Origin: a virus
IMG/VR virus record: IMGVR_UViG_3300010375_000028
Coordinates: 1 to 43,644 of that record
Reading direction: 5' to 3' (one strand)
DNA: 43,644 bases
The notes beneath the pieces are model-generated. The model saw only the letters and a program-made list of their open reading frames with translations, searched no databases and had not been told where the DNA came from. A program made the translations under genes and the position numbers. Positions 4,501-43,644 of this stretch are shown in pieces. The stretch's first letter is position 1; each line of letters begins with the position of its first letter.

Positions 4501-7500
4501 CTGCGCGGCGCGCAATTCGCGCTGCCGCGTCTCGATGCCGATCAGCGTGTCGACCATATCCTGACCCGACTTGAACCCGACTTGTTCGGCGAGGATATCG
4601 GGATGCACGCCACCCTGGTCCACGATCGTCGGCGGGACGCCGCGCGGCATCATCGCCAAGGCATCCGAGCCATAGTCGTTGACGAACGCCTCGCGGTTCA
4701 GCTGCGTGCGCTTCTCCGGGTCGCGGTTGCGTAGGGCCGCCAGCGCCTTGAACTCGGGACGGTCGCGAACCTGTTCCTCGACTTCACGGCGAACCGATTG
4801 GCGCTCGCGCTTCCATTCGGCGGTGCGCGCGCGGCGGATCGTCTCCATGGTGCGGAACAGCAGCGCGTCGAACGCTTCCGACCGCACGGTCTTGGCCGAC
4901 GCAGTGTACGCCGCGAACTCGGCATCGGTCATGCCTGCCTCGGCGGCGGACGAGAACAGCAAGCCCTGCTCGGGCTGGGCTTCGACCTTGGCGATCTCGG
5001 TGTCGGTGGCGATCAGCCGGTCCATGACCTGACGCACCTCGTCGGTGATTGGCGCGTTCAGGTTTTGCACGACCTTGTAGATGCGCAGCAGCCAGGAGCG
5101 GAACGACGAGAAGGCGCGGGCCAGCGCCGAGGTCGGAGCCTTGCCCTCCATGAAATAGCGTTCCATCCCCCGCGCCCACAATTCGTGGGCATCGGTCGGG
5201 ATCGTTCCGGTCGAGGCGAAGGCGAAGCCATTGGCGCGGAACCAGCGGCGGACGGTCTTCCAATCGTCCTTGACCTGTTGCGGGGCATCAGGGCGAGCGG
5301 CGTCCTGGCGCAATTCTTCGAGCCAGAGGTGCGCGCCTTCATGCAGCAGCGTCGAGAGGTCGCGGCCTTCGAACAGACGGATCACGGCCCGGCCATCCTT
5401 GGCGAAGTCGATGCGACCGCGCGGCTTGGACTCGCCGCCCTGAAACAGCGAGAAGCCGGATTGAGCAGTAGCGGCCATCTGGGGCGTCACCTCGAAGCCC
5501 CACTGCTTGACCAGGGCAGCATCGCGCATCTGCTTGGCGGTTTCCTCGGCAGCATTGGCGTCGGCATAGAGACGCTCGGCACGCGCGCCGTCGACCGCCG
5601 CCAGTGCGTCCGCTTCCTCGCGGGCACGGCGCGCGTCTTCCATCATCTGATCAGCGCGCGGCGTGTCGTCCATCACGTCGACCGGCGCGACCTTGGCTCC
5701 ATACTTCTTGATGATGTCGTTCGTGATGTTGACGAGGTTACGGTCGTAGAACGCCTTCATGCCATCGCCGCCGATCTCCAGATCGCCGGCATCGAAATTG
5801 ACGGGTTCGGTAGAGATGGCGGCAGCGTCGAAGATGCGGCCACCCAGTTCGCCCATCGCCTTGACCAGCTGCTCGCGGTTCATGATCGCATCGCCATGGT
5901 CGCGCGGCGTGGTGCCGACTGCCATGCTCTGCGAGAGCAGCACGTCAGTGACCGAGGGGTCGCCGAACTTGACGACGACCAAGCCATCGCCGAACGCGGC
6001 ACCCGAGCGTGCCGACACACTCCCGACCCTTTGCCCGAGGCTATAGCGCTCGGACTGCTGGGCACCGGTCGTCCACGCCACCGAGTGGTAGCCATGATCG
6101 GCCGCCCAGCGGATTACCCGCTTCATGACCAGCGCCGGCCACGTGGTCTTGAACGGGGCCTGGGGGATGCCCGACACCCGCATTGCCGCTGCATATTCCT
6201 GCGCCGCTTCCTCGTTCGCGAGCATGGCTTTGCGGTATTCGGCGCGCAGTTCGGAAATCTTCAGATCGCGATCGGCATCCAGCACCTCGGGATAGCGGCC
6301 ATAGGAGGCCTCGCCGCGCTGATAGCGCGCAAGCCCGACATTGGCATAGGACGCCTGCTCATCGAGCGGCTGGTCCTTGAGGGTGAAACCATCGTACCCG
6401 ACCGCCGGCTTGGGAGGCTCATCGTGCGGCAGCACGTCAAGCTCCTGCCCCATCGCCAGGATCGCCCGCTGCGCAGCTTCCCAGCGCTGCTCGGCGGCGG
6501 CAGTCTTGGCGCGAGCGGCCTCGATGACAGCTGGCGGCGCGGGGACTTCATAGCCCTCGTCGCGGCCCTTTTGGTGCCAATCGGATTGCACCTCTTCAAC
6601 GAACAGGACCGGACGCCCTTGCGCATCGCGTTTTGCCTGGAAACGGGTATGCGCGACGACACCGGGTCGCGACCAATGAGTGTCGGGTGCGTTGCGCGGG
6701 TTCTTCCCTTCCCCGAGCGGAAGGGTGATGAGCAATTCCCGATAGGTTGGCGTTGCCTGTTCGGTCGACGTCCAATCGGCGAAGTGGGTCAGCGCGCCAA
6801 GCGCCTCCTTGGCTTCGCCGTCAAAGTCCTCGGGATCGCGCATGCGGCGCACATCGCTCTCGATGCTGCGGCGGACGTCGTTCTCCCATTCGCGCTGGGC
6901 ATTGAACACGTCCTCGTCATAGGCTTGCAGCGCCTCAGCCTCGGTTTCGTAGACCCAGCCGCTATACTGGAACCCCTCGTCCACCGGCTCGATGGTCGAA
7001 TCGATGCCGGGAAAGTCTTCCTCGCGATCGGCCAGGATCTGCAGCGTGTGGCGCTCGACCCATTCCTCGTAGAGCCGCTCCGCTTCCTTATTGACGTCGG
7101 CCCCGTTGTACTCGCCCAGCACAACCTCGGAAACGCGGATGCCGCCAGAGGCAAGGAACTGCTGCACATCGGTGCGCGAGATTTGGCCTGGCTGTTCCGC
7201 CAGCCATTCGGGCAGGCCGGACCATTCGATCTCTTCCGCCTTCACGCCGGACGTGTTGCGCAGGGTTGCGAGCCATTGAGCGGCGGGAGCCTTCGCCAGC
7301 TTGGCGGTGTCGACGGCATTGGTCAGCGCCGAGTAGAACGGGGCGCTTTCCGGCTGCGATTGATAGAAGGAAATCGACCCGTCATCGGGACCATTGCGGC
7401 GGTCTTCGAGCTGGCGGATCGCATCGGGCAGCAGCAGATGCTCATCGCCGAACCGAGCGCCTGCAAGCCCGCGCTCATCCAGCAGCGGCTGGAGGTTCGC

Positions 7501-10368
7501 GGAGTCGGCCCAGGTATCGTAGAAATCCTGCCAGGCCTTGGGGTCGCCAGCGAGAAGGGCGTCGGCATAGGCGGGCTCGTCGGGCCATTGACGACGCGCC
7601 ACCTCGGCGGCGAACTCACGGCCGGCTTCGCTCACATTCCCGCTGCGGTCGCCCAGATCGATGATGCGATCGGCAACAGTCTGCGGCACCCAGAAGGTAT
7701 AGCGCCAAGGACCGAAGTCGCGGCCAACGGCATCCGAGAATGCGGCCGACCCGAAGTAGTTGGCCAGCATGCCCTGCGGACGCCCCTGCGGCAGCGCTGT
7801 GGGGCCATTATGATGCAGGACGAGGTCAGGGGCCATCCCAGGCGGCGGGACGTTCCACGCCCGCCACTGGTCGAACGTGCGGGTTGTCTGCAATTCCTTG
7901 TGGCTGTCGGCAATGGCCTGCTTGATCTCGTCGACCGTTGCCTTGTCCGGGTCGACGCCCCGATTTTCGAGAAAGCCTCGCAGATCGTCGGCGGCGGTGC
8001 GAAGATGGGCGTCGGTGGACGTACCGCCGTCCGCCGCGCGATCTTCCGAATAGACCGACTGGCCACGCAGTTCGCGGTCGATCGCATCATGGAATGTCTG
8101 AAGGTCAGCCTTGGAGTTGAAGTCGCTGCCTTCCGTCTCGCGCCCGACCAGTTCCGGGAAATAGCCGGCGTCGATTGCAGCCTGGAAGATACGCTCCTGC
8201 GAGTTGGGAGTGGACCCCGTCTCCAGCCCAGCCAGCGTGCCCTGCTCGGTCGAGGCTGCACCCTTGATCAACTTGCGGCGGAACGGCCCAGCCTGATGCC
8301 ACTTGTCGGCACCCATCGCCGTGAGGTCGCCGCCCTTGTCCTCGACACCACCCCTTGAGGCGATGAACTCCAAGAGCGACGGGCCGCGCAGTTTCTTGTC
8401 GGAAGGTGCGGCCTGATCGCGGCGCATGACGTTGACCAGCCGATCGACAGAGTCGGCGCGGTCATAGGGGCGCAGGCTCTCGGGCAGTTCGGAGACGATG
8501 CCACCAACCGATTGCTTGAACAGCGAATAGGCGTCGGTGCCTTGCTGTGCGGCACGCGCGCTGTAGCGGGCAGTCCACAGATCGGCATAGGCACGAGCGG
8601 CATTGAGCCCGACACCGGATTGACGAGCCTGCGAGAGAACCTCGTCATAGACCCGCTGGGCCGGCGCGGCTTGTTCGCGCGCGGCGCGGTCCATTGCAGC
8701 AGCCTCGTCGCCGCGCTGCTGCATCAGATCGACGTGCGAATCCTCGATCGCCTTGCTCTCGGAGAGACTGACGCCGCCGGGCGACAGGCGAACCGAGTCG
8801 CGCCAAGTATCCCAGCGATTGCCCTCCGAGAAATGGGTGACGGCTTCCCCGATCGGGATGACGACATCGCCGCCGATCGGCGCGGCGCTGTCGATCTGAC
8901 CGGCGTACTTCGACCAGAACGGATCGCGGGTGTAATCCTCGCCAGCTTCCTGAAAGAGCGACCGAACCTTATCGGCGGGAATGTAGACGTTCTCCAGGCT
9001 GGTGCCGTCCGCCTGCCCCTGGATGAAATCGGCATAGGCCTGCGGGTTGCGCTGGACGAGCGGGGCCTCCTTGGCGAGCCCCACCGCTTGATCAAGGAAT
9101 TTCGAGCCAGCCAGCGCGGTCAGACGGTCCCCGATATCCTGCGAGTGGTCGGCGAACTTGCGATAGGCACCGTGGATACCGCCCAGCGCCGCCGAGCCCA
9201 TGACAGTCGCGACAGCGGTATCGAGCATCGCCTCTGGGCGCGAAGCCCAATATTGCGACCACGTCGCGCTAGGATTGGCAATGGCGGTATCGGCGGCATC
9301 CTGCCCCATGGTCGCCAGCTGCTCGCCGAGCATTTCACGACCGAGGTAATGGACCAGGAAATGGCCGACGCCTTCCTTGCCGAACCGGTCGACCAGATAG
9401 CCCATGGGGAGTATTTCGGTCCCGGCCTCGATGCCGCCCTCAAGCGTGCCGCCGAGCAGCGCCTCGTTCGCCGTCGCTCCACGCGCACGATACTTGCCAT
9501 AGGCCTGCATGCCCGTCTGCGTGCCGAGGATCGCCAGCAGCGAAGTGCCATCGGTTAGCGGAGCGAGCGCGAGCGCAGGCGCGGTCTGGAGGAAGGACGA
9601 GACGCCGCCATAAGCAGCATTGCCGAGCGGCGAGACGATCGTCGGACGCTGGCTGATTTGACGCTCGCTGGACGTTTGATAGGCCCGCTTCCATTCGTCC
9701 ATATAGGCGGTGTCGCCCTGACCCATGGCGTCGAGCAGATACATGCCCATGCCATAATAGACCTGCCGAAACCCCTCGGTCATATCGACCCCGATGCCAT
9801 GGGCCACAGTCCATGGCGCGGCAACTGGGCGGTTCGCTTCGAGATTGGCTAGCCGCTGATCCTCGGTCGTTTGACTGCCGGTGAGGGACGCGAGCAATTG
9901 CTGCGTGGTGAGCGGCTGGTAAAGCGGCACGCGCGCCGACACCGGCCGGTCGGGTTGGCCGAGCATGCGCGCCAGCGGGTCGGTTTCGGGAACCCCGAAG
10001 ACGCTTTTCGGCGGGCCGAACCAGTTGGCGGTCGCCGCCATCGGATCGATGTTGTCCCGCACAGACGCCATGTTGCGGGGGTCTTCGAGCCAGGGGTGCA
10101 GCTTGGGTGCCGAGGCAATCGTATTGAGATCGCGCGCGGTTTGGATCTTGGCCTGGAACATCGGCAGATTGCGCTGCACAGTGTCGGCCGGCATCTTGAA
10201 GGGAGCCTTGGGGTCCGACCAGTTCGAGATGAGATTTGCGCGACCGGCATCGTCGGCAAGGTGGCGCGCTTCCTCGGTGGCAATCCAGTTCGCGCGGATA
10301 CGCTCCATCTGGTCAGCGCGGCGCTGCCCTACATTATCGATTGCGCCCGAGAGCCAGTCATCACTCAC
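1591..10368 (-). CDS. Giant polyvalent virion protein with zincin motif
   Basis: This is a 2,925-residue protein starting at GTG 10368, which overlaps the stop of the upstream gene (GTGA). It belongs by appearance to the large polyvalent proteins of phages, which join many small domains and are often packaged and ejected with the DNA. Visible parts: a hydrophobic Gly/Ala-rich region around 210-400; the EEVQSDWHQ motif near 1258-1266 and its partner VAWTTGAQQ near 1425, a conserved pair in phage polyvalent proteins; a zinc metallopeptidase motif HEGAH at about 1676-1680 followed by HELWARGMERYF; Glu/Arg-rich helical stretches at about 1750-2250; and a conserved C-terminal part (GGYYPVVYDP near 2445, WNVFYNQQREAV near 2740). 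It lies between the core transglycosylase and the tail spike, where podoviruses keep internal or ejected proteins. The exact function is unknown; peptidase activity is inferred from the motif. Confidence 0.85.
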   Translation of the reverse strand: MSDDWLSGAIDNVGQRRADQMERIRANWIATEEARHLADDAGRANLISNWSDPKAPFKMPADTVQRNLPMFQAKIQTARDLNTIASAPKLHPWLEDPRNMASVRDNIDPMAATANWFGPPKSVFGVPETDPLARMLGQPDRPVSARVPLYQPLTTQQLLASLTGSQTTEDQRLANLEANRPVAAPWTVAHGIGVDMTEGFRQVYYGMGMYLLDAMGQGDTAYMDEWKRAYQTSSERQISQRPTIVSPLGNAAYGGVSSFLQTAPALALAPLTDGTSLLAILGTQTGMQAYGKYRARGATANEALLGGTLEGGIEAGTEILPMGYLVDRFGKEGVGHFLVHYLGREMLGEQLATMGQDAADTAIANPSATWSQYWASRPEAMLDTAVATVMGSAALGGIHGAYRKFADHSQDIGDRLTALAGSKFLDQAVGLAKEAPLVQRNPQAYADFIQGQADGTSLENVYIPADKVRSLFQEAGEDYTRDPFWSKYAGQIDSAAPIGGDVVIPIGEAVTHFSEGNRWDTWRDSVRLSPGGVSLSESKAIEDSHVDLMQQRGDEAAAMDRAAREQAAPAQRVYDEVLSQARQSGVGLNAARAYADLWTARYSARAAQQGTDAYSLFKQSVGGIVSELPESLRPYDRADSVDRLVNVMRRDQAAPSDKKLRGPSLLEFIASRGGVEDKGGDLTAMGADKWHQAGPFRRKLIKGAASTEQGTLAGLETGSTPNSQERIFQAAIDAGYFPELVGRETEGSDFNSKADLQTFHDAIDRELRGQSVYSEDRAADGGTSTDAHLRTAADDLRGFLENRGVDPDKATVDEIKQAIADSHKELQTTRTFDQWRAWNVPPPGMAPDLVLHHNGPTALPQGRPQGMLANYFGSAAFSDAVGRDFGPWRYTFWVPQTVADRIIDLGDRSGNVSEAGREFAAEVARRQWPDEPAYADALLAGDPKAWQDFYDTWADSANLQPLLDERGLAGARFGDEHLLLPDAIRQLEDRRNGPDDGSISFYQSQPESAPFYSALTNAVDTAKLAKAPAAQWLATLRNTSGVKAEEIEWSGLPEWLAEQPGQISRTDVQQFLASGGIRVSEVVLGEYNGADVNKEAERLYEEWVERHTLQILADREEDFPGIDSTIEPVDEGFQYSGWVYETEAEALQAYDEDVFNAQREWENDVRRSIESDVRRMRDPEDFDGEAKEALGALTHFADWTSTEQATPTYRELLITLPLGEGKNPRNAPDTHWSRPGVVAHTRFQAKRDAQGRPVLFVEEVQSDWHQKGRDEGYEVPAPPAVIEAARAKTAAAEQRWEAAQRAILAMGQELDVLPHDEPPKPAVGYDGFTLKDQPLDEQASYANVGLARYQRGEASYGRYPEVLDADRDLKISELRAEYRKAMLANEEAAQEYAAAMRVSGIPQAPFKTTWPALVMKRVIRWAADHGYHSVAWTTGAQQSERYSLGQRVGSVSARSGAAFGDGLVVVKFGDPSVTDVLLSQSMAVGTTPRDHGDAIMNREQLVKAMGELGGRIFDAAAISTEPVNFDAGDLEIGGDGMKAFYDRNLVNITNDIIKKYGAKVAPVDVMDDTPRADQMMEDARRAREEADALAAVDGARAERLYADANAAEETAKQMRDAALVKQWGFEVTPQMAATAQSGFSLFQGGESKPRGRIDFAKDGRAVIRLFEGRDLSTLLHEGAHLWLEELRQDAARPDAPQQVKDDWKTVRRWFRANGFAFASTGTIPTDAHELWARGMERYFMEGKAPTSALARAFSSFRSWLLRIYKVVQNLNAPITDEVRQVMDRLIATDTEIAKVEAQPEQGLLFSSAAEAGMTDAEFAAYTASAKTVRSEAFDALLFRTMETIRRARTAEWKRERQSVRREVEEQVRDRPEFKALAALRNRDPEKRTQLNREAFVNDYGSDALAMMPRGVPPTIVDQGGVHPDILAEQVGFKSGQDMVDTLIGIETRQRELRAAQDRRSVLQETIDLGTDQAMRERHGDPLSDGSIEEEALTAIHSDKRAEIIASEIRYLSRRTTVKTGEGATVPTPVAIARAWAENKVREGKVSEEATAAALLRHQRNEAKAARAAQEAILKGDVDAAFVEKQRQLYHNELYRAAKKAKDQIDVIVRRLGKYAKSRVIKSMDAEYLGQIHGLLDAYDFRPVSAAGLSERESFREWAAAKAEQGEEVYVPPRLRDFEKVNFKDATVEDLIGLDDSVTSIAHLGRRKKKMLLAKEEAEFEDVVAQAVESVEKLRSLPVSSDRNPKPTLRSRARGLDATLIKVEFLADEMDGFDPNGVFNRVLVRGAQDAASEKTRLVHDVMRPLAELYNSMSREQQRRMREKVTVNELATRDPNTGEEGPTAFDRSEILAIALNTGNASNLDKMIRGESRIVSEANAWTHEKVQAVLDREMNEEDWQFVEKVWRQVDSLWPAIVKAEREISGVVPEKVEPRIVQTKFGPINGGYYPVVYDPTRSAMAEANYEDDAAKMFGQMGRVISTPKGHTITRTEAAAPLMLSLEGVLLNHINRVTTRIAYGRYVRDTLKFISHPKIKDVIDRKVGREYREQLKPWLQRQVNDAALDTKQLRALDRMMRRFRVNATMVGLGFRFTTMFAQAAGMTNSIKEIGPKYAALGVGDTIRNLGSLREFVFSRSPMMAERAQEFDRDVRTFFAEFSNKHGPLDRFRAMAYWGIGNVQLFTVDMPTWFGGYRKALDEGMSEEDAVAYGDKVVRRSQSSGRAADLSALQDSSEGYRVMTMFYSFWNVFYNQQREAVHATRSGDWRRASMNVFWIMMASPVLSALLTGDWPDDDSDESWFHWGMRKMFFGLWSGLPIIRELSAGAERESIGKRAMDAQTPITRSASALVAPLKDAYKVSTGDAPSDRWVQHAVTAPGYFFGLPTGQLGSTSQYLYDVAQGNQNPQGVGDVAVGIVKGPQKNQQGSPAPASE

Positions 10369-13069: not shown

Positions 13070-13520
13070 TTTCGCCCCTCCAGAAAGTCAGGAAGGGCTC
13101 ACCCCCCTCGACCACGACCTCATCACCGACCTCGAACCCCAGCTTCTTGAGGAATGCCAGCGCCCGCACATTGCGCGCGGATACTACATTTTCGAGACGC
13201 CGAAAGCTACCGTGCATAAAGGCAACCACACGCGGGCCATAAACGAGCAGATCGCGAGGATGATCAAACACCGCATCAGTCCCCAGAAACCACGGCCGGC
13301 CGATGCTGCTGACCAGCGAATGCTCCCATACGCCGAACATCGCATGAGGCGAGCCGTCGACCTTGGCGGTCAGCGCGAAGCGCGAGCCAGCAAGACTGAC
13401 GGCCAATCCCTGGCGCGGCGTCCGCCCCTTGGCCGCGCATTCGATCCGGTCAATTTCGCGCATGCGCCGGGCGATCCTGCCTATATGGGCATGAGACGCC
13501 GGAACAAGCTCGACGGTCAA
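13062..13520 (-). CDS. GNAT-fold phage protein, T7 gp13-like
   Basis: This 152-residue protein probably starts at TTG 13520, which overlaps the stop of the nozzle gene (TTGA). This start gives the expected N-terminus (TVELVPASHAHIGRIARRMR), like other gp13-type proteins. The residue pattern is that of a small acetyltransferase (GNAT) fold: an N-terminal helix that positions the protein (IGRIARRMREIDRIE), a central strand pair (ALTAKVDG, FGVWEHS), and the C-terminal helix-strand end NVRALAFLKKLGFEVGD with a following strand. T7 gp13 homologues share this fold and help assemble the internal core without known catalysis. The acetyl-CoA loop is poorly conserved here, so enzyme activity is doubtful. 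It is translated between the nozzle and the gp14-like gene and coupled to both. Confidence 0.7.
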   Translation of the reverse strand: MTVELVPASHAHIGRIARRMREIDRIECAAKGRTPRQGLAVSLAGSRFALTAKVDGSPHAMFGVWEHSLVSSIGRPWFLGTDAVFDHPRDLLVYGPRVVAFMHGSFRRLENVVSARNVRALAFLKKLGFEVGDEVVVEGGEPFLTFWRGENV

Positions 13521-15355
13521 CCGGTCACACCCAAATCGATATAGACCGCAGTGACCGACAGCGGCGTAATGCGATGCTTGATGACGATCGACGCTTCGCC
13601 ATTGGTGACCGGTTCGGTGCTGATCTCATAGACGCCGTTGAGCAGGGAATCCTCCGACGTGCCGGGCGCGGCATAGGGCGTCTTGAGGGTGTACATTTTG
13701 TTGTCGTCGACATCATCGTCGAATTGCCGGCGAACCCCGATCGTCGGCGGGCGCGACCGAAGAAGAGCGACGTTCACATCTCCGGTCTGATTCACGCGCC
13801 CAGCATTGGTCTGGCCGGTAGGCACGAACAGCGGCAGCGTTTCGACGTGAACATCGAATGGCAATCCCACGGTGATGACCGAGCCCTGATAGCCCTCGGG
13901 CAAGGTGATCTGCCCGTTCGCCACGACCAGCCCCTCGACCGCCAGTCCATCGACCAGGGCGGCGACCGTTTCGCCCTCCAGATACCACAGGCCGGTCACG
14001 ACCGAGGACGGGGTGGTGAAGGTCACCGTGGTCGAACAATCCATGTGGCAAGCATAATTGAGCCCGAACCAGCGCCCCGACGCCATGCGGCAACGGACCT
14101 CCCGCGCGACCCCGGCAATGGTAAACTCGATGATCGCATAGACCCGGTTCTCGACCATGCCATCGGAGCCGATCTCAGGAATCGAACACAGCGACTTGAC
14201 CTTGCCCTCGTTCGCCAGCGGGCAGATGGTCCAACCCCAGACTTGCTGCTCCTTTTCCCAGGTGAAGCACAGCAGCGCGCCATCCGAGCGCGCTGCCCAG
14301 ATGACCGAATAGGGTTGCTGCGAATAGCACCACGACACGATGTCGAAGCCCTCGAAGAAGTCGGGTGAATAGATCGTGACGTTGGACGACTTGATGCCGT
14401 CGATCTGGAAGTCGTACCCGGAAGCGAAGATCTCCGCAGAGTTGTCGGACTTGTAGAAGGCGACCGAGTCGACCACCAGCGGAGAGAGCCGCGAGCAGGG
14501 AGTGCCCGACTGCCGCCGCACGCGCGGCGGTGGCGAGGCGGACAGATAGTCCTCGTTCGAGCCCTCGATCTTGTAGATGCCGTCCGAGGTGAACCCGAGC
14601 AACGATTGAAGCGAGGCGAGCTGGTTGATGTGGTTTACGCCCTGCGACACCAGCCGGATGGTAATCGCATCATCCGCGCGCAGCGGTTCGGAGATGTCCT
14701 GGTTCTCGAAGTCGGCCGAGCGCGACGAGAAGAGCGCGTTTGGATTGTTGCGCGTGCGCGCCCACCACAGACGACCCTCGAAGAAGGCGACCGTTGACGG
14801 ATAATTGCCAGTGCCGGTGAACGGGTTGTTCCCGGTGGGCGGCCCGACCGTCAGATCGGCATCGATGAAATCGTCGACAAAAGAAAGACTTTCGGTCTGA
14901 CCGGCATAGCCCAGGCTTCCGGTGTTCTCCGCCTTGTAGATGCGATAGCGCACCGCGCCGGTCACCGCCGACCAACCAATGGTGTTAAAATTACGCTTGA
15001 GCGTCAGATCGTTGGTGCAAGTCGATGGCGTTGAACCCCGGCTTTCCTGGGCGGTGTCGCCGTCGATCGTCGTCACGACATAGGTCGCCGGCTGCGGGAA
15101 ATAGGCATCGCCGCTGTTTGCCGCGTCGGTGTTGGGCGTGGTGGCCGTGGCCGTCACCCCGGAAGGGGCGACGACGGTCGGGCCGAAGGTGATATCCGAG
15201 AAGGCCCAGGAAGTATGCGAGGCGCGCGTCAGTTTCGACGGCACATGGTCCAGATGCGCCAGATACATGACGTCGAACGATTGGACCCAATCGACCTCCG
15301 ACAGTTCGCTGGCGTTGAACGGCGACCCAACCTTATAGATGCGAAGTATGCCCAT
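13517..15355 (-). CDS. Tail nozzle protein, C-terminal part (gp12-like)
   Basis: This is a 612-residue protein. In related podoviruses the nozzle (tail tubular protein B) is one polypeptide. Here the first part is encoded by the gene just upstream and this frame begins at what is normally an internal point: RIYKVGSPFNASELSEVDWVQSFDVMYLAHLDH corresponds to the internal segment of intact homologues, where a short strand leads into SPF/TPY, then VQSADVLYLVHP. The rest is rich in beta strands, with fibronectin-like and propeller-like blades (FEGRLWWART, ALFSSRSADFENQD, LLGFTSDGIYKIEGSNEDYL). The ATG at 15355 overlaps the upstream stop (TGATG), so it is probably made by coupled re-initiation. It would form the narrow end of the tail tube. 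The split and the Hint domain at the break are the odd features. Confidence 0.8.
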   Translation of the reverse strand: MGILRIYKVGSPFNASELSEVDWVQSFDVMYLAHLDHVPSKLTRASHTSWAFSDITFGPTVVAPSGVTATATTPNTDAANSGDAYFPQPATYVVTTIDGDTAQESRGSTPSTCTNDLTLKRNFNTIGWSAVTGAVRYRIYKAENTGSLGYAGQTESLSFVDDFIDADLTVGPPTGNNPFTGTGNYPSTVAFFEGRLWWARTRNNPNALFSSRSADFENQDISEPLRADDAITIRLVSQGVNHINQLASLQSLLGFTSDGIYKIEGSNEDYLSASPPPRVRRQSGTPCSRLSPLVVDSVAFYKSDNSAEIFASGYDFQIDGIKSSNVTIYSPDFFEGFDIVSWCYSQQPYSVIWAARSDGALLCFTWEKEQQVWGWTICPLANEGKVKSLCSIPEIGSDGMVENRVYAIIEFTIAGVAREVRCRMASGRWFGLNYACHMDCSTTVTFTTPSSVVTGLWYLEGETVAALVDGLAVEGLVVANGQITLPEGYQGSVITVGLPFDVHVETLPLFVPTGQTNAGRVNQTGDVNVALLRSRPPTIGVRRQFDDDVDDNKMYTLKTPYAAPGTSEDSLLNGVYEISTEPVTNGEASIVIKHRITPLSVTAVYIDLGVTG

Positions 15356-16350
15356 CAGAGATTATCCGGGTCCATCTTGAGGTTGTGCGACAGCACGCCA
15401 TTCGACACATAGGTCCGCGCGCCAGAGATGGTGATTTGCGCCACCTTGCCCCGCTTTGCGCGCTTGCCGGCCCGTTGCATCGTCGTCCACTCCCCATCGA
15501 GAAAGACCCGGTGGAGCGCAGTCGCGAACAGGTACCGATCGCCAGCGCGATAGCGATACAGCTGCTGGTTGTCGGTGAACTCGACGGCTTCGACGCGATA
15601 ATCACCCCACTCGAAATCGCGATCGGGGTTTTGCGTCCGAACCATCGCGCCGACGTAGAGCAGCCCAGCGGCGATCTCGGACCCATCGGCCAGCAGGATC
15701 ATGGTGTCGACGGCCACGCAACGCGTGCCGCCACCACCGCCACCACCGCCCACGATCGGCGGATCGGGTGGAGCGACGGGCGGAGGGACCGGCGGCGGGG
15801 GAGGAGGAGGGGGCGGAGGGGAGACGTTGGTTACGCCCCCTGTCGCGCCCGTGAAGGTTCCCCAGGCGGTGCTGTTGGCATTGATCGCGATGTGGTCGGC
15901 ATCCGGCACACCGGTCACGGTCCAGACGCGCCCATTCAGTTGCGTCATTCCAGCGACGGTGCCGGCCGGAATAAACACGCGGTCGCCCACCGCATAGCCA
16001 TGAAGCACGACGTTCAGGACGCAGGGGTTTGCCTTGGTCGCGCCAGCAATGGCGAACTCGGTTTCAAGGAGGAAGCCGCCATAGGCGAGCGGCTGCATAT
16101 ACCCTTGCCCCATTGCCAGCGCATAGGTCTGCTCGTTCGAGAAAGTGAAGGGGAACAGCTGCTCCCCATCGTCGAGCGTTTCGTCCACATACCGGAAGCC
16201 AGGCCGGATAGTGAACCCGCCCTCTCGGCGGACGATGATGTTATCGCCGCGCCGAAGACCGGCCGAGTAGCTTTCGACGTCGACACGACGGAGAAGGCGT
16301 GCCGATAGAACGCCCTTGGAGAAATTGGCTTGAGCGAGACGAATCGCCAT
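15355..16350 (-). CDS. Tail nozzle protein, N-terminal part, with C-terminal Hint domain
   Basis: This protein has 331 residues. Residues 1-92 match the start of podoviral nozzle proteins (AQANFSKGVLSARLLRRVD, FTIRPGFRYV, FPFTFSNEQTYALAMGQGY). Residues 100-172 form the beta-domain often inserted in these proteins (IAGATKANPCVLNV, HGYAVGDRVFI, MTQLNGRVWTVTG). A proline-rich linker (177-198) and eight glycines (201-208) follow. The end, 211-323, is a Hint/intein-like domain: Cys211 in CVAVDTMILLADGS, His280 in ATALHRVFLDG, and the terminal ARTYVSNGVLSHN with Asn323. Only eight residues (LKMDPDNL) follow, and residue +1 is Leu instead of Cys, Ser or Thr, as in bacterial intein-like domains. Self-cleavage is therefore more likely than normal splicing. 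The ATG at 16350 overlaps the previous stop (TGATG). Confidence 0.8.
   Translation of the reverse strand: MAIRLAQANFSKGVLSARLLRRVDVESYSAGLRRGDNIIVRREGGFTIRPGFRYVDETLDDGEQLFPFTFSNEQTYALAMGQGYMQPLAYGGFLLETEFAIAGATKANPCVLNVVLHGYAVGDRVFIPAGTVAGMTQLNGRVWTVTGVPDADHIAINANSTAWGTFTGATGGVTNVSPPPPPPPPPPVPPPVAPPDPPIVGGGGGGGGTRCVAVDTMILLADGSEIAAGLLYVGAMVRTQNPDRDFEWGDYRVEAVEFTDNQQLYRYRAGDRYLFATALHRVFLDGEWTTMQRAGKRAKRGKVAQITISGARTYVSNGVLSHNLKMDPDNL
15382..15720 (-). other. Hint (bacterial intein-like) domain coding segment
   Basis: This stretch codes for residues 211-323 of the nozzle N-terminal protein. It carries the three signatures seen in Hint domains: a first Cys followed by a DT.ILLADG block, a block-B-like segment with His280, and a C-terminal TYVSNGVLSHN block ending in Asn. 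No homing endonuclease is present; the domain is only about 113 residues. The family self-cleaves at its N-terminus or C-terminus, and full inteins also join the flanks. The missing +1 nucleophile and the stop codon eight residues later argue against canonical splicing. Confidence 0.75.
15727..15822 (-). repeat. Pro-rich and Gly8 low-complexity linker codons
   Basis: CCN codons (ten consecutive Pro at 15790-15819, then more up to residue 198) and eight GGN codons (15727-15750) link the nozzle fragment to the Hint domain. On the plus strand they appear as GGA/GGC/GGG and CCA/CCG runs. Such repeats are prone to slippage, so length variation between isolates can be expected. Confidence 0.8.
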
Positions 16351-25115: not shown

Positions 25116-26543
25116 TCAGCCTCCCGCTGCCACGGCGACTTGACCGACCGCGTTGTAAAATCCCGCCTGGGCTTCCCGTTCGGCGACGAGCTGCGCCCAG
25201 GTTCGGCCATCCCCTTCGAGAATCGCCTCCTTGCCGGTGAACGCTTCCCAGCGTTTCACCGCCACATCAACATAGCGCGGATCTAGTTCGATGGCGAACA
25301 CGCGACGGTCGGACATTTCACCCGCGATGATCGTGGTTCCCGAGCCCGAGAAGGGTTCGTACACAACCTCGCCAGGAACCGAGTTGTTCTCGATTGGCCG
25401 CTTCATGCAGTCGACCGGTTTCTGCGTTCCATGCCCGGTGTCGTTCTTGAGATGCTCAATGAACCAGACAGTGGTTTGCTTCCGGCCACCACGCCAGTGG
25501 GCGGTCTTCCCCTTCTTCACGACATAGAGCGCGGTCGCATGGTCCTGCTCGAACGCCTCGGCAGGATCGACGGTCAGCTGCTCGCCTTCGCGCACGGCGA
25601 AGAAGGCGGGCTCATGCTGCCAGTGGAAGTGACCACGGCTGAGGGCGGCGCGGGTCTTTACCCAGATGATTTGAGCGCGGGGCAGCAGCCGGCAGGCTTC
25701 GAGCGAAGCGGCCACCTCGGCAGCGTGGACGCCGCCATGCCACACATAGGCGACTTGGCCAGGGAACAGACCCCAGGCTTCGCGCCAATCGGCTTGATCG
25801 TCGTTCATCACCTTGCCGACAGCATCGGACGCATGGGCGTCCACCACCTTGCCCGACGACTTGTGGCGGGTGACACCGGCCGCATCCTTGCCCGTTTCGT
25901 TCCGCCACGCCGGGTCATAGTCGACGCCATAGGGCGGATCGGTGACCATCAGGTTCGGCACTTCGCCGTCCAACACGCGCTCTACATCGGTTGCCACGAT
26001 GGACGAGCCGCACAACAGGCGATTGCCGCCCAGCAGCCAGAGGTCTCCAGGGCGGGAGATTGCCACCTCTTCGAGCGGAGGCGCGTCATTCGGATCGGTC
26101 TTGCCCTCGGTGGGGTTGGCCAGGATGTCCGCCAGCGAATCGGGGTCGAAGCCCAGCACGCCGAGATCGAAGCCGGCATCGCCCAAGGTGACCAATTCGG
26201 TCTTGAGCATGTCGAAGTCCCACCCGGCATTAAGCGCCAACTGGTTATCCGCGATGATGTAGGCCTTGCGCTCCTCTTCGGAGAGCCCCGACAGGTCGAT
26301 CGTCGGCACCATGCCGCGCGGGAGGATCGCCCGCTTGCCAGGCCCCGGCACGTCTTCGCCGGCCGCCCACATTTCCGTCATCGCCTGCAACCGGCCGTGG
26401 CCGACGAGGATGCCCTCGCCGTCCACACCCAGCGGCGTGTTCACCCCGAACTTGCGGAACGAGGCTTTCAGCTGCTCGATCTGCTCAGGCGAATGGGTGC
26501 GGGCATTGTTGGCATAGGCGACCAGTTCGGTCGCAGGGCGCAT
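25116..26543 (-). CDS. ParB-like domain fused to DNA methyltransferase
   Basis: This 475-residue protein has two parts. Residues 1-150 are a ParB/sulfiredoxin-like domain (ATELVAYANNARTHSPEQIE, ILVGHGRLQAMTEM). The second part is an amino-methyltransferase of the beta arrangement: the catalytic DPPYG at about 202-206 comes before the S-adenosylmethionine motif FSGSGTT at about 398-404, with the target-recognition part between them. The expected product is N6-methyladenine or N4-methylcytosine in phage DNA. No matching restriction enzyme is encoded nearby, so it is an orphan enzyme, probably for protection against host restriction or for regulation. The ATG at 26543 has no strong ribosome-binding site and lies 17 bases after the previous stop, so re-initiation is likely. 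Confidence 0.85.
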   Translation of the reverse strand: MRPATELVAYANNARTHSPEQIEQLKASFRKFGVNTPLGVDGEGILVGHGRLQAMTEMWAAGEDVPGPGKRAILPRGMVPTIDLSGLSEEERKAYIIADNQLALNAGWDFDMLKTELVTLGDAGFDLGVLGFDPDSLADILANPTEGKTDPNDAPPLEEVAISRPGDLWLLGGNRLLCGSSIVATDVERVLDGEVPNLMVTDPPYGVDYDPAWRNETGKDAAGVTRHKSSGKVVDAHASDAVGKVMNDDQADWREAWGLFPGQVAYVWHGGVHAAEVAASLEACRLLPRAQIIWVKTRAALSRGHFHWQHEPAFFAVREGEQLTVDPAEAFEQDHATALYVVKKGKTAHWRGGRKQTTVWFIEHLKNDTGHGTQKPVDCMKRPIENNSVPGEVVYEPFSGSGTTIIAGEMSDRRVFAIELDPRYVDVAVKRWEAFTGKEAILEGDGRTWAQLVAEREAQAGFYNAVGQVAVAAGG

Positions 26544-26560: not shown

Positions 26561-28654
26561 TCAGGTGACGACTCCCAGGCGTTCGTACATGTAGCGCTTC
26601 ACGACCTGGATGATCGGCCCAGCGTCCAGCTGCAGACCGCCATGCACATAGCCGAGGCGGCGCTGACTGAACCCCGTCGAGTTACCGAGCAGCGTCAGAT
26701 TGCCATTGGGGAACCCGGTCGCAGTCACCGTTGAATTTGTCGGCGAACTCTTGCTGCGCACGTAGATCGTCTTGGTGGTTCCCGCGCGTTGCGACATCAG
26801 CAGGAACGTTGCGGAGCCCACGGCCTTCGACAGGCTTGTGCCATCGGCGAGCAGCGTGCTTGCGTTGTTGCTGGTCGACTGCGCAGAAAGCGTGAGGGCG
26901 GCGGTTGTTGCGGTCGTGCCCAGATCGCTGCTGGCAGCGGTGACGTTCTCGGTTGGCACGATGCACAGCTGGATGCTGGTCGTGGTCATGCGCTTGGTGA
27001 CAGAGGTCGAAGGATTGAACGCTGCGGTCAGCTTGGCGGACGCGGTGCCGTCGATGCCCAGATATGGCGTGTGCGTCGGGCCAGCGGCGGTATCGGTCAG
27101 CGACGTGCCAGCGTTGACCGCCTCGAACACGTTCTTGCGGGCAACGGCTTCAACCGGCTCACCGAGCAGGTAGGCGAAGTCGCCCTTGAGCCACCAGCCG
27201 ACGCGCTTGATGCCACGGAAATAGGCGGTGACGATTTGCCGATCGACATCGCCGTACGATGCCGCGCCGATATACGTTGCGGCATCGGTGTCCTCCACGA
27301 ATGGCGTGGTGACAATCCCGGCGGTGCCCCAGCCGAAGGTGCGCAGATTGCCGCCCGTCGAGAAGTCGGCGTCGTCGATCGCGCGCTCGCAGAAGGCAAA
27401 CCGGAAGTTGGCCGGCGCACCCTCCACGCGGGCCACACCGTCCAGGGGATGTACCGGCGTCGTTGCCATCACCAGCGCAGCAGCAGACCAAGAGCCGCCA
27501 GTCGGGCGCGTGGTGCGATAGATGTTCCCGCCACGAACGAACGCGGCCTGCGTTTCCATGTCGTTGACCGCGCCGGTGAGCGACGGATAGAGGACTTCGA
27601 CGCCGCCGCCCGGCAACGGCCCGATGGCCGGAGTCGAATAGCGATAAGGCGCAGCGCCAATGTTCGTCGGCCCCTCAAGCAAGGCCCCCGCCAGACTGTA
27701 GCGGGCATAGTAGAAGATCAGCCCGCCGACGCCGCCTTGGTACAGGCAGTGGATGCCCTCCGCGTCAATGAAGATTGACGGGGTGTTGCTTTCCTCGGTG
27801 CCGCCGGTGGTCTGATCGACCAGCCGAAACGAGGCGTCAGCAGGGGTGCGGAGAAGCGGGAAACCGGCACCGCTTACCGACACGGTCCCAGCGAGATTGC
27901 GGAAGGTGTCGGTGGTGGTGTCGTAGACGCCCAGATAGAGATCGAGCCGAATGCTATCGGCGGCGTTGGCGCGGCACCAAGGAATATAGAGGAGGTTGCC
28001 TTGAACGACGAGCGTGCCCGCATAGGTTCGCGAGTCGTTCTCCATGTCGATCACGGTTACCTTGGCGTTCCACGAAACAGCCCCGGTCGAGGCGTTGATG
28101 CTGGACGATTTATACAGCACCAGCGGGTAGGTATTGCCGCCCGGCGACTCCCGCATGAACAGATATTGCGTGTTCCCGACATGCACCGGATGCGGGTAGG
28201 TCATGCCCGTCCCGACCGCGCCCTGCGCTGCCCAGGTTGCCCCGCCGTCGATCGAGATGCTGTGCTTCATTGGCAGGCTGTGCGCGCCGCCATAGGAATG
28301 CCAGAACCCGTACTGGTCCTTGCAGAGAACGCCAACGCCATGCTGGTCAGCGGTGCCCACCACAGCGCTGTCATCGGTCATGATCACGTTGCCGACCGAC
28401 GCGGCCTGGGCGGACAGGTCATAGGAGAAGAACGTGTTCTCCTTGAGGACAGTCCCGCCGTTGTAGTTGTAGCGCTGGATAACGCCCAGAACGCGGTTCG
28501 TCGGCGCATCATAGACCCATGCAGGGCCTGAGTTGGCACCATACCACAGGCCAGCAGAGGCCCCGCCGTCATCGAGATACGACACGCGGGCGGCGGCGCT
28601 TGCGCTTGCCGCTCCGAGTGCCAAGCCGAGGCCCTCAAGCCCAAGCCCTGCCAT
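26561..28654 (-). CDS. Head-spike-associated beta-propeller, probable polysaccharide lyase or sialidase type
   Basis: This 697-residue protein has four visible parts. Residues 1-15 (MAGLGLEGLGLALGA) repeat the N-terminus of the next-upstream fibre gene and probably dock it on a common base. Residues 25-450 look like a beta-propeller of the BNR_4 type: DQHGVGVLCKDQYGFWHSY at 103-121, GGAH at 122-125, and a canonical Asp box SIDGGATW at 134-141. His105, His119 and His125 are possible active-site residues, as in ulvan-lyase-like propellers. The end (from about 530) is a Thr/Ser-rich beta domain (LTAAFNPSTSVTKRMTTT onward) that may bind carbohydrate. The ATG at 28654 overlaps the previous stop (TGATG). 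Enzyme class is inferred. Confidence 0.7.
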   Translation of the reverse strand: MAGLGLEGLGLALGAASASAAARVSYLDDGGASAGLWYGANSGPAWVYDAPTNRVLGVIQRYNYNGGTVLKENTFFSYDLSAQAASVGNVIMTDDSAVVGTADQHGVGVLCKDQYGFWHSYGGAHSLPMKHSISIDGGATWAAQGAVGTGMTYPHPVHVGNTQYLFMRESPGGNTYPLVLYKSSSINASTGAVSWNAKVTVIDMENDSRTYAGTLVVQGNLLYIPWCRANAADSIRLDLYLGVYDTTTDTFRNLAGTVSVSGAGFPLLRTPADASFRLVDQTTGGTEESNTPSIFIDAEGIHCLYQGGVGGLIFYYARYSLAGALLEGPTNIGAAPYRYSTPAIGPLPGGGVEVLYPSLTGAVNDMETQAAFVRGGNIYRTTRPTGGSWSAAALVMATTPVHPLDGVARVEGAPANFRFAFCERAIDDADFSTGGNLRTFGWGTAGIVTTPFVEDTDAATYIGAASYGDVDRQIVTAYFRGIKRVGWWLKGDFAYLLGEPVEAVARKNVFEAVNAGTSLTDTAAGPTHTPYLGIDGTASAKLTAAFNPSTSVTKRMTTTSIQLCIVPTENVTAASSDLGTTATTAALTLSAQSTSNNASTLLADGTSLSKAVGSATFLLMSQRAGTTKTIYVRSKSSPTNSTVTATGFPNGNLTLLGNSTGFSQRRLGYVHGGLQLDAGPIIQVVKRYMYERLGVVT

Positions 28655-29421
28655 CAGAACTGCATGCCGTTAATCCACGCGATCTGCCCGGTATTGTTTG
28701 CATCGCTGGTGGTGATCACGATGGTGTCGCCGGTCGCAAGACCGCCGGGGAAGAACTTGAAGAACCCCTGCCCGCTGATGAGAGCGTTCGACCCACCGAA
28801 CTGGTTGGAGGTTGTCGGCGAGCCAGCGGCTGGCACGATGTACGGCCCGACATAAGTCCGCGTCGAGCCAGAGGCGTTGAAGATCGCGAAGCCAGTCATC
28901 GTCTCGACCGGGTTGTTTATCGCGGTGCCGCTGATCGAGCCGAACACGACGGTCTTGCCGGCCGGGTGGGTGTACAGGACGTTGTTGCCGTTCACCCAAG
29001 TCTGGATATCCCAGCGCGACAGGGCGGACGATGCGTCGAACTCGATCACGCTAAGCCATGCCGACATTCCCAGTGCTGACGAATTGATCGTCAGCACCTC
29101 GGCGGCATTCATTACGATCGGGATGCTGTTCGAGCCGTTCGAGCCGTAGTTGTGCCCGATGCCAGCCGCGCCCTCGGTCTTGCCAGCACCGATCTGGAAC
29201 GTACCGTTCGGGGTTGTCAGCTTGGTGAAGTAGGTGATGCCGCCAGCGGTCGGGTTGGTTACCCAGACGTCAACGACAAGCGCCTTCTTGCCAGTGGGCA
29301 CGGTGTAGAGAACTTGATCGCCGGCAGGCAGCGACAGATTGCGAACGACAGGGAATGACGGATTGATCACGGAACCGGCAGAGGTGCCGAGAACGAGCCC
29401 AAGGCCTTCGAGGCCGAGCAT
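28654..29421 (-). CDS. Head spike fibre protein
   Basis: This 255-residue protein begins MLGLEGLGLVLGTSAGS, a short hydrophobic Leu/Gly motif shared with the next gene, then a beta-rich body (LSLPAGDQVLYTVPTGKKAL, then SPTTSNQFGGSNALISGQG and TGDTIVITTSDANNTGQ). It lies immediately downstream of a gene-transfer-agent-like spike base, and the start codon overlaps that gene's stop (TGATG). In the Rhodobacter gene transfer agent a base and a fibre encoded together form capsid spikes that bind the cell surface. By position this protein would be the fibre. The body has two similar halves (VLYTVPTGK and VLYTHPAGK, each about 90 residues), suggesting a duplicated beta domain. The receptor is unknown. 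Confidence 0.65.
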   Translation of the reverse strand: MLGLEGLGLVLGTSAGSVINPSFPVVRNLSLPAGDQVLYTVPTGKKALVVDVWVTNPTAGGITYFTKLTTPNGTFQIGAGKTEGAAGIGHNYGSNGSNSIPIVMNAAEVLTINSSALGMSAWLSVIEFDASSALSRWDIQTWVNGNNVLYTHPAGKTVVFGSISGTAINNPVETMTGFAIFNASGSTRTYVGPYIVPAAGSPTTSNQFGGSNALISGQGFFKFFPGGLATGDTIVITTSDANNTGQIAWINGMQF

Positions 29422-29666
29422 CAGTACAGAGCGATCAGGTTTGAGGCCGTCGTCCCGGTTACTCGCACATAGGCGGGGCGGACAGGGAAGATGCCAACAG
29501 CAACGTTCTTGAACACGACATCAGCCGAATCGTCAGGCGTCCGCATGGTGATGTCGCCAGCGGTTCCGACGTAGATGCCGCGAGCCCCAGGCGTCAGCGC
29601 GTTGGTGTCATGCGGCGTCAGCGTCAGCGCCGATCGAGCAGGCCCACCAGCAACAATGTCAGACAT
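29421..29666 (-). CDS. Head spike base protein, Rcc01079-like
   Basis: This 81-residue protein resembles the family of head-spike bases of the Rhodobacter capsulatus gene transfer agent and related phages: a start with TLTPHDTNALTPGARGIYVGTAGDITMR, then DVVFKNVAVGIFPVRPAYVRVTGTTASNLIALY. The GIYVG-x-AGD and PVRxxxVxxTGTTAxNxxALY parts are what I recognise. The protein would sit on the capsid and hold the spike fibre. The ATG at 29666 has only a weak GGGTGA site, so the hairpin in the leader or re-initiation may matter. It is the first gene of the head-spike module and is coupled to the fibre gene. Confidence 0.75.
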   Translation of the reverse strand: MSDIVAGGPARSALTLTPHDTNALTPGARGIYVGTAGDITMRTPDDSADVVFKNVAVGIFPVRPAYVRVTGTTASNLIALY

Positions 29667-29829: not shown

Positions 29830-29991
29830 TCAGAACAGCCCAGCCCTTTGAGCGATCAGCACCGCACCCAGGATGACGATCGCCGCCTGGAGGATGCGGA
29901 CGACGCCAGCATCGAGCGGGGGAGAGAGGAACGAGACACCATAGACCAGCAGGGCGATGATGATGATTCCGACAACGACGGCGACGATCAT
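29830..29991 (-). CDS. Tiny two-span membrane protein
   Basis: This 53-residue gene starts at ATG 29991 with TGGAGTG eight bases upstream, and ends TGA at 29830-29832. It begins MIVAVVVGIIIIALLVYGVS, a long hydrophobic helix, has a short PPLD turn and a second helix, AAIVILGAVLIAQRAGLF. The topology is two membrane helices with a short loop. It is in the leftward unit between the 103-residue protein and the head-spike leader. It resembles small phage membrane proteins of no known function, perhaps a holin-like or exclusion protein. The clean initiation signal and the pure hydrophobic pattern make it real in my view. Confidence 0.6.
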   Translation of the reverse strand: MIVAVVVGIIIIALLVYGVSFLSPPLDAGVVRILQAAIVILGAVLIAQRAGLF

Positions 29992-41685: not shown

Positions 41686-43644
41686 TCACACGTTCGCTGG
41701 AGTTGGACGGCGGAAGAAACCAAGGCGGACCCTCGACCGTGTCTTGTTCGCGTTCTGATCGATCACGATCGAGCCGGGCGCGCCGGCAGTGAGCGTGGTG
41801 AGCTTGGCGGTTTGAGGTGCCAGAGCATTTATCTCGACCGGCGAAACCAGATAGTCGCCGACAGCCAGGCTCGTCGTGATCGTTGAGCCGAGAACGGAGT
41901 CCGTGGCAACGTTAGAGATCGTCGTCGCAGCGGTGATCGAGCCCGACACTGCGCCAGTCGCATTCGCCGTCATTACCGCAGTATTGCCGTTGACGCTGAG
42001 TACAGTTGTTCCGGCCGGGATGTTGGCATGCGTGAGCGGGTCGCCGGGCTTGAGCGCCCCAGTTACTGCGGTGAGGTTCGGCGAGCCGTTGGTGCCGGTC
42101 GCCGTCACGTTCGACTGGAAGTCCCCGAACAGCGGCGTGGCAGGGGTATAGTTCCGGGCATGCAGGAGCATGAAATTGCCCGTCACCAGCGACACTGGGA
42201 ACAGCAGGCTCTTGACCCCCCCGACCGTCTTGTAGTTGTTCCTCGCCACGGCATAGAGCGTGTCGGTCGCATCGTCATAATAGCGCACCGCCCACACCAT
42301 CCCCGTCGTGTTTTCGAGCAGGACAGAGCCCGGCCCGAAGCCTTGCAGATCGGCACTGGTGGTTTGGGTCGAGCCTGTGAAGACAAGCTTGATCTCGGTC
42401 GCATCCGCGCTGACGAAGCTTGGCACGGCAGAGCCTTTACTAATCAGGTACGGGTCGGCATGCGGGACCGGTAGCTCTTCATAGTTGACGCCAGACAGTG
42501 CCCGCACCGTCTTCACCATCGCCGGGATGCAGACCGATCGATCCGAGAACCGGAAGCCGCTTACGGTGACGCACGTCCTTGCACCGATCCCGGTGTTCAA
42601 ATTCCATTGGAGGAATTTCAACCGCTGATCTTCAACCCGATACTCGAGCCCGGTCAGGATCAGGCCGCCGGCCGTGGCGTTGTTAAATGCCGCTTGATAT
42701 AGCGGGATCGCAACGCCGCCAGCGCCGCTGTCGTAATTGTAGATCTGGGTGTTGATGAACTTCGCGCCCTCGACAAAGCACCCGAACACGCCATCGACGT
42801 TGATCCGGCAATTGAGGAACACCGGGCCGCCAGCACCGCCGGACGCGCTCGTTTCATTGATATTCGGGTTTCCGTCGAAATAGTTGTAAAGCTGACGAGG
42901 CGCGCGACCGCGCGCCTCGTTGACGCCGGAGAACGACCATTCGCAGGCGATGAACACCGGGCTCAATCCCGCGACATAGGCAGTGCTGCCAAACACCTGA
43001 CCAAGCCGGAATTGCCCCTCCGAATAGCAGGCGTTGAACACCATCGGCTCGCCATAGGAACTGTCAGTTCGGAACACGTCGACCGAGGCACCGAAGCCGC
43101 AGGTATTGATATGGCCCGCCTTGAAGCTGCCCGACTGAACCCCATGCGTGTTGTTCGTGATCGCGCATTGCAGGACGCCGAAGTTGCAGGATTGCATGTT
43201 GAGGCTGCGAAGCTGGTGGTTGCCCGCGCTGAACCCGAACGAGCATTCGGTGAAATTGCAGCGCTCGCACGACAGGAAGTCATCCTGCGAGGGGTTCGTG
43301 CCGGGCTTCATCATCAACCCGACAATGGCACCCCGGAAGTAGCAATTTCGGAACGTGGCGAAGCTGCCGTAATAGAAGTTGCCATAGGCTTCGCTGGCCG
43401 GGTTCATCAGCCACGCCGGACGATAGGGATTGCGATAGGCGACGTACAGGCCACCATCGAACCCATCCCAGGCACCGAGGTAGCGCCAGGTTACGGTGCC
43501 ATCGACGACGGTCGGGGTGGTGGCAGAAGGCCCGGTGCCGGACGCCGCAGACACGCCGGCGATCATGCAGCTATAGACGTTGCCGTTCGCTCGAATCGTC
43601 TGGCGAAAGCCATATGCGGTATTTTGGTTCCACAGGCCCGATGA
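41686..43644 (-). CDS. Tail spike/fibre, C-terminal part (joined to 1-1538)
   Basis: This frame runs without a stop from the window end (43644) to TGA at 41686-41688. It is the C-terminal part of the 1,101-residue spike; the ATG at 43566 is internal. The 191 bases 43454-43644 duplicate positions 1-191. After the sequence CMIAGVSAASGTGPSA and VDGTVTWRYLGAWDGFDGG, repeated Cys-containing short strands follow (FRNCYFRGAIVG, CNFTECSFGFSAGNHQLRSL, SCNFGVLQCAITNNTHGVQS), typical of a right-handed beta-helix. The C-terminal 120 residues include TATGTNGSPNLTAVTGALKP and DPLTHANIPAGTTVLSVNG, a repeated small beta domain likely to help trimer formation or carbohydrate binding. Confidence 0.8.
   Translation of the reverse strand, partial: SSGLWNQNTAYGFRQTIRANGNVYSCMIAGVSAASGTGPSATTPTVVDGTVTWRYLGAWDGFDGGLYVAYRNPYRPAWLMNPASEAYGNFYYGSFATFRNCYFRGAIVGLMMKPGTNPSQDDFLSCERCNFTECSFGFSAGNHQLRSLNMQSCNFGVLQCAITNNTHGVQSGSFKAGHINTCGFGASVDVFRTDSSYGEPMVFNACYSEGQFRLGQVFGSTAYVAGLSPVFIACEWSFSGVNEARGRAPRQLYNYFDGNPNINETSASGGAGGPVFLNCRINVDGVFGCFVEGAKFINTQIYNYDSGAGGVAIPLYQAAFNNATAGGLILTGLEYRVEDQRLKFLQWNLNTGIGARTCVTVSGFRFSDRSVCIPAMVKTVRALSGVNYEELPVPHADPYLISKGSAVPSFVSADATEIKLVFTGSTQTTSADLQGFGPGSVLLENTTGMVWAVRYYDDATDTLYAVARNNYKTVGGVKSLLFPVSLVTGNFMLLHARNYTPATPLFGDFQSNVTATGTNGSPNLTAVTGALKPGDPLTHANIPAGTTVLSVNGNTAVMTANATGAVSGSITAATTISNVATDSVLGSTITTSLAVGDYLVSPVEINALAPQTAKLTTLTAGAPGSIVIDQNANKTRSRVRLGFFRRPTPANV
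43454..43644. repeat. Terminal overlap, right copy
   Basis: Direct repeat of positions 1-191 with A at 43549 in place of C at 96. It marks the point at which the circular sequence was cut, and codes for the same stretch of the tail spike as the left copy. Confidence 0.95.

Follow-up and report, generated by a model that had tools for sequence, protein, structure and literature searches.

The window, by which we mean the whole 43,644-nucleotide stretch of viral DNA analyzed here, carries adjacent genes for a base, a fibre and a propeller protein that likely specify head spikes of the type known from the Rhodobacter gene transfer agent RcGTA. The fibre and an enzyme resembling uronate lyases would be the alternative cargoes of these spikes, probably producing a mosaic head. 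The three genes follow one another in the order base, fibre and propeller at the minus-strand positions originally predicted, and both of the TGATG couplings that had been proposed between them were confirmed in the sequence (Table 1).

Table 1. Features of the predicted head-spike module, with positions in the window
Feature	Position	Strand	Details	Basis
Predicted head-spike base	29421..29666	-	81 aa, Rcc01079 family	NF048002 and 6tb9 matches
Stop/start overlap, base to fibre	29419..29423	-	TGATG	Sequence
Predicted head-spike fibre	28654..29421	-	255 aa, no recognised family	Position and plug
Fibre plug	29386..29418	-	Residues 2-12, LGLEGLGLVLG	Leucines 2, 4, 7, 9, 11
Stop/start overlap, fibre to propeller	28652..28656	-	TGATG	Sequence
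Propeller protein	26561..28654	-	697 aa; plug, PL25-like seven-bladed propeller, C-terminal module	Profile and model
Propeller plug	28613..28645	-	Residues 4-14, LGLEGLGLALG	Leucines 4, 6, 9, 11, 13
PL25-like propeller domain	27290..28552	-	About residues 35-455	VIA-align, Foldseek
Putative active site	28022..28342	-	H105 (28340-28342), H125 (28280-28282), Y153 (28196-28198), R168 (28151-28153), Y211 (28022-28024)	PL25 alignment
C-terminal module	26564..27289	-	About residues 456-697	Common to full-length relatives

The window represents a circular genome of 43,453 bp: its ends overlap by 191 bp (positions 1-191 and 43454-43644), with one mismatch. Judged from its sequence, the genome appears to be of the podovirus type and to belong to a short-tailed phage; it also encodes a head-tail connector portal, a phrog_212 capsid protein, a Bbp16-like protein and tail tube proteins. 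In transcription order, the spike module is upstream of a DNA methylase gene, which is followed by terminase and head genes. The module is separated from the tail genes by those for terminase, portal, protease and capsid, in agreement with the original prediction that it is far from the tail genes, and the gene for a presumed tail spike of 1101 aa, a protein that gave no family match, spans the contig ends, apart from the module. We found no close relatives of the whole phage, and relatives of its portal were only ~30% identical. Since the propeller relatives in named phages all come from Rhizobium phages and the genomic relatives of the base from Rhodobacterales or Martelella, the host is likely alphaproteobacterial.

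Some further features of this genome, all on the minus strand, were observed alongside the module. A 53-aa hydrophobic membrane-type ORF (29830-29991) is located upstream of the base gene, and RHph_Y25 has a small DUF3309 gene in the same place before its base. The methylase encoded downstream of the module (25116-26543) is of the N6/N4 type, with an N-terminal part that is ParB-like by eye. A 2925-aa protein (1591-10368) with a sub-threshold large-polyvalent-protein domain (LPD22) adjoins a 728-aa SLT transglycosylase protein. A tail protein with a match to phrog_376 is divided between two ORFs (15355-16350 and 13517-15355). By eye, a Hint/intein-like domain (CVAVDTMILLADGS...ATALHRVFLDGEW...TYVSNGVLSHN) follows a proline/glycine linker at the end of the N-terminal half; for this domain, the family libraries returned a weak intein match only.

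The base, originally described as an 81-residue Rcc01079-like protein, was verified as such by a score of 74.5 bits against NF048002, the NCBI equivalog model for the Rcc01079 spike base (cut-off, 28), and by matches to the solved RcGTA base 6tb9_E3 (E = 6.6e-5) and to 8cjz_h (E = 0.005). In RcGTA, the head spike consists of an Rcc01079 pentamer on the capsid five-fold vertex that holds one Rcc01080 fibre, of which residues 2-10 (IALGLGLGL) form a five-point star, its five (iso)leucines filling five hydrophobic pockets of the base (PMC7296036). We observed base genes in capsid or packaging neighbourhoods in RHph_Y60, Edwardsiella ZHS, Flavobacterium immuto, RHph_Y25 and N3_2. In RHph_Y60, the base gene adjoins a propeller homologue and is positioned between the genes for a head morphogenesis protein and the capsid. 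An alignment of base sequences was too diverse for scanning a collection, and a weak base match in one genome (G001; 11.3 bits) was discarded because it falls in another gene. We also observed a viral contig (L014) with two tandem spike-base genes (4020-4295 and 4332-4607) and no plug-tagged gene found nearby.

Both the fibre and the propeller protein of the window begin with a five-leucine plug (N-termini MLGLEGLGLVLG and MAGLGLEGLGLALG, respectively). The two plugs are identical at 10 of 11 residues and share a leucine spacing of 2-3-2-2, which also occurs at the N-terminus encoded at locus L013 (MRIGIGGIGIGV), whereas RcGTA shows the strict alternation 2-2-2-2. Because 8 of the 10 identical residues are specified by different codons, selection on the peptide seems a better explanation of the similarity than a recent copy of the DNA.

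To count such N-termini, we scored as plug-like those with at least four alternating aliphatic residues, a rule that was written after the motif had been seen and under which the window fibre scores 4, not 5, as valine 10 breaks strict alternation. Across diverse loci, 16 of the 22 genes directly after a base encoded plug-like N-termini, as did 19 of the 906 other ORFs of those loci, an enrichment of ~35-fold by frequency (Fisher p = 2e-20) against a background that includes spurious ORFs and in loci some of which are mutually related. Short low-complexity N-termini can arise randomly, as the 19 background ORFs illustrate, and the leucine-rich N-termini of the window might be signal-like or chance sequences in a module of unrelated small virion genes. 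We consider this origin very improbable in view of the enrichment after base genes, the physical role that the RcGTA structure gives to the motif (PMC7296036) and the near identity of the two window plugs. Among complete genomes of propeller phages, a base was present in three of the four with a plug and in none of the four without one (p = 0.07, not significant), and co-variation of plug and base across 13 propeller-phage records was weak (p = 0.12). One locus (L009) had a plug-like N-terminus with no base detected.

Family library searches with the fibre gave no match that reached its cut-off. In the searches with the module proteins, name matches to XpsH, DsbC_N and a Waikavirus capsid were set aside as weak and below cut-offs. 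Neither the fibre nor the propeller protein matched NF048003 (GTA_spike_fiber domain). The fibre also had no match among solved proteins and no homologues in phages, plasmids or viral contigs. An internal duplication in the fibre is possible, with an internal repeat score of 49 relative to 33 +/- 6 (maximum, 54) for shuffled sequences. It is plausible that the fibre is beta-rich; its structure model (pLDDT, 36) was unusable.

The original prediction placed the spikes on the head. This placement is supported by the predicted RcGTA-type docking peptide on both cargoes and by the base genes located near capsid and packaging genes elsewhere, but the arrangement of fibre and propeller needed refinement: as both bear the same plug, they most likely occupy different vertices rather than being stacked in one spike. 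In RcGTA, each base gene is paired with a single fibre protein; the label of the base family in PHROGs is 'tail fiber' (PHROG 12296); and the surveyed loci yielded no other case of a base followed by two plug-bearing genes. All of this would fit a base that takes only one cargo, with the other cargo, or both, docked elsewhere, such as on the tail, or a single stack of base, fibre and propeller. These arrangements seem unlikely, considering that the fibre and propeller have in common a plug whose codon differences look like the result of selection, that the RHph_Y60 propeller homologue is directly on a base gene, and that in N3_2 a plug-tagged propeller occurs with no neighbouring fibre and with the base gene elsewhere.

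The propeller protein produced a real Pfam match to BNR_4 (PF15892), the family originally named for it, but its 22.9 bits are under the gathering cut-off of 27.3, and profile and model analyses led to PL25. In a search of solved proteins with a profile of ten propeller relatives, a PL25 ulvan lyase was the only significant match (E = 6.3e-7). The structure model was of middling quality (mean pLDDT, 48.5; core, ~75). The structural comparison with ulvan lyases that had been proposed as a check gave PL25 as the best match, with Foldseek identifying the PL25 ulvan lyase 5uam as the best PDB match of the model (E = 3.6e-13) and VIA-align superimposing the model on 5uas over 373 residues (Z = 31.3; rmsd, 3.1). 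In structural matching, PL25 was ahead of GH145, PL42 and lectins.

Catalysis by PL25 enzymes involves Y188 as base, H123 as acid and R204 as neutraliser, with H143 and Y246 as helpers (PMC11395424; also PMC8377490). We checked PL25 numbering along the chain, where an offset of 24 fits H123, H143, Y188, R204, Y246 and H264 and the N expected at position 123 is seen in the H123N entry 5uas. In the profile alignment, H123, Y188, R204 and Y246 correspond to H105, Y153, R168 and Y211 of the window protein, all invariant in 10 of 10 relatives, so that the acid, base and neutraliser of the lyase-like active site originally anticipated align with family-invariant residues. H125 of the propeller, likewise invariant in 10 of 10, was one residue off H143. 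No histidine was found at the propeller position aligned with H264, which has been described as a key residue close to the Zn site, and because H264 is not kept, we describe the propeller on these alignments as PL25-like rather than as a proven PL25 member. The C-terminal module is common to all full-length propeller relatives and, at locus L015, stands behind a plug without a propeller; a sequence search of the PDB gave it no significant relative.

Seven-bladed PLL/PHL lectins are also near the propeller model in structure (Z ~27), and GH145 relatives keep residues of the anterior lyase-type site with no lyase activity shown (PMC8377490). The head spikes might thus carry a propeller that is a catalytically silent lectin, binding host polysaccharide only. 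However, PL25 outranked the lectins by all three methods (profile search, Foldseek and VIA-align), and the catalytic residues stay the same even though identity among family members falls to 26-31%, and we regard a silent lectin as unlikely.

In the model that we favor, with the fibre and a lyase-like propeller as alternative cargo, base pentamers would occupy the five-fold, non-portal vertices of the capsid, and the five hydrophobic pockets of each pentamer would take one five-leucine N-terminal peptide. Because the fibre and the propeller carry nearly the same peptide, either cargo should be able to fill a vertex, and the two would hence compete for vertices. Part of the vertices would then bear the fibre, probably a binder, and others the propeller enzyme, resulting in heads with both. 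By analogy with PL25 lyases, the propeller probably acts by beta-elimination on capsule or exopolysaccharide that contains uronic acid. The enzyme would probably clear uronate-containing surface polysaccharide while the fibres hold the particle, with the tail spike engaging the cell next.

Cargo behind base genes differed among phages. We observed plug-like N-termini after a base on, among others, a laminin-G-like protein of Verrucomicrobia phage P8625, on a GDSL-like acylhydrolase of Rhodobacterales (L060; match just under the Pfam cut-off) and on a GTA spike fibre domain protein of Martelella (L061) that matches NF048003. In the Rhizobium phages N3_2 and Y25, the base gene is found just before TerL, and the plug-tagged cargo gene is instead after the lysis genes; the cargo is a propeller in N3_2 (MLLGLSLALTN) and the SGNH hydrolase EVC10_022 in RHph_Y25 (MSLMLGLSLSL; N-terminus, MSLMLGLSLSLNNQLGGGGGGG). 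Propeller bodies ~90% identical to that of the window carry unrelated N-termini in viral contigs (L027/L028, L029 and L030), which indicates that the propeller is a portable effector and its N-terminus an anchor. At another locus (L024, 4632-5969), the gene after the base encodes an unexpected cargo, a DUF285/PARCEL-repeat protein with the N-terminus MIAIGNGIGV.

We are evenly divided on a broader proposal, in which the five-leucine plug and the pentameric base would constitute a general head-vertex display socket of alphaproteobacterial and other phages with exchangeable cargo (lectin-like, SGNH/GDSL hydrolase or lyase-like), and in which the window phage would place two cargoes on one type of socket, producing mosaic heads with a ratio of binder to enzyme set by competition. 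Phage depolymerases are usually regarded as tail parts. If our model is correct, the head as well as the tail could bind and clear the sugary host coat. A head-vertex socket open to any protein with a leucine plug of about ten residues would account for orphan genes of the propeller, lectin-like and esterase kinds near capsid or packaging genes. The plug would also permit annotation of head-cargo genes from sequence, and the base-plug socket would be a natural display scaffold. Such a socket would also suggest that the head spike of the gene transfer agent exemplifies a phage device that is widespread and exchangeable.

Like the head spike of RcGTA (Rcc01079 base and Rcc01080 fibre; GhsA/GhsB), the window module has adjacent genes, the same base family and a downstream partner with an N-terminal five-aliphatic plug. 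Unlike RcGTA, it has two plug-bearing partners, one of them lyase-like; its fibre is without a match to the NF048003 fibre domain; and its genes are in a podovirus near methylase, terminase and head genes. With the PL25 ulvan lyase PLSV_3936 (5uam and 5uas), the propeller has in common the seven-bladed fold, and it has family-invariant residues aligned with the catalytic acid, base, neutraliser and helper Y246. It differs from PLSV_3936 in sequence (~16-17% identity over the structural alignment), in having no H264 equivalent, in being phage encoded and in its extra N-terminal plug and C-terminal module. The propeller proteins of Rhizobium phages (RHph_Y60, N3_2, N17, N3_13 and others), annotated as hypothetical or by a BNR repeat only, are full-length homologues that include the C-terminal module (26-31% identity). 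They differ in their N-termini, and most are without a detectable base and plug, with the base of Y60 directly upstream. EVC10_022 of RHph_Y25 resembles the window cargo in its plug-type N-terminus, in a phage whose base gene is just before TerL, but it is a different enzyme and its gene is away from the base gene. In the open-access literature searched, we found no report of an enzyme on head spikes of the RcGTA type. RcGTA head spikes and PL25-like lyases are each known separately, and within that literature scope their combination in the window phage is apparently new.
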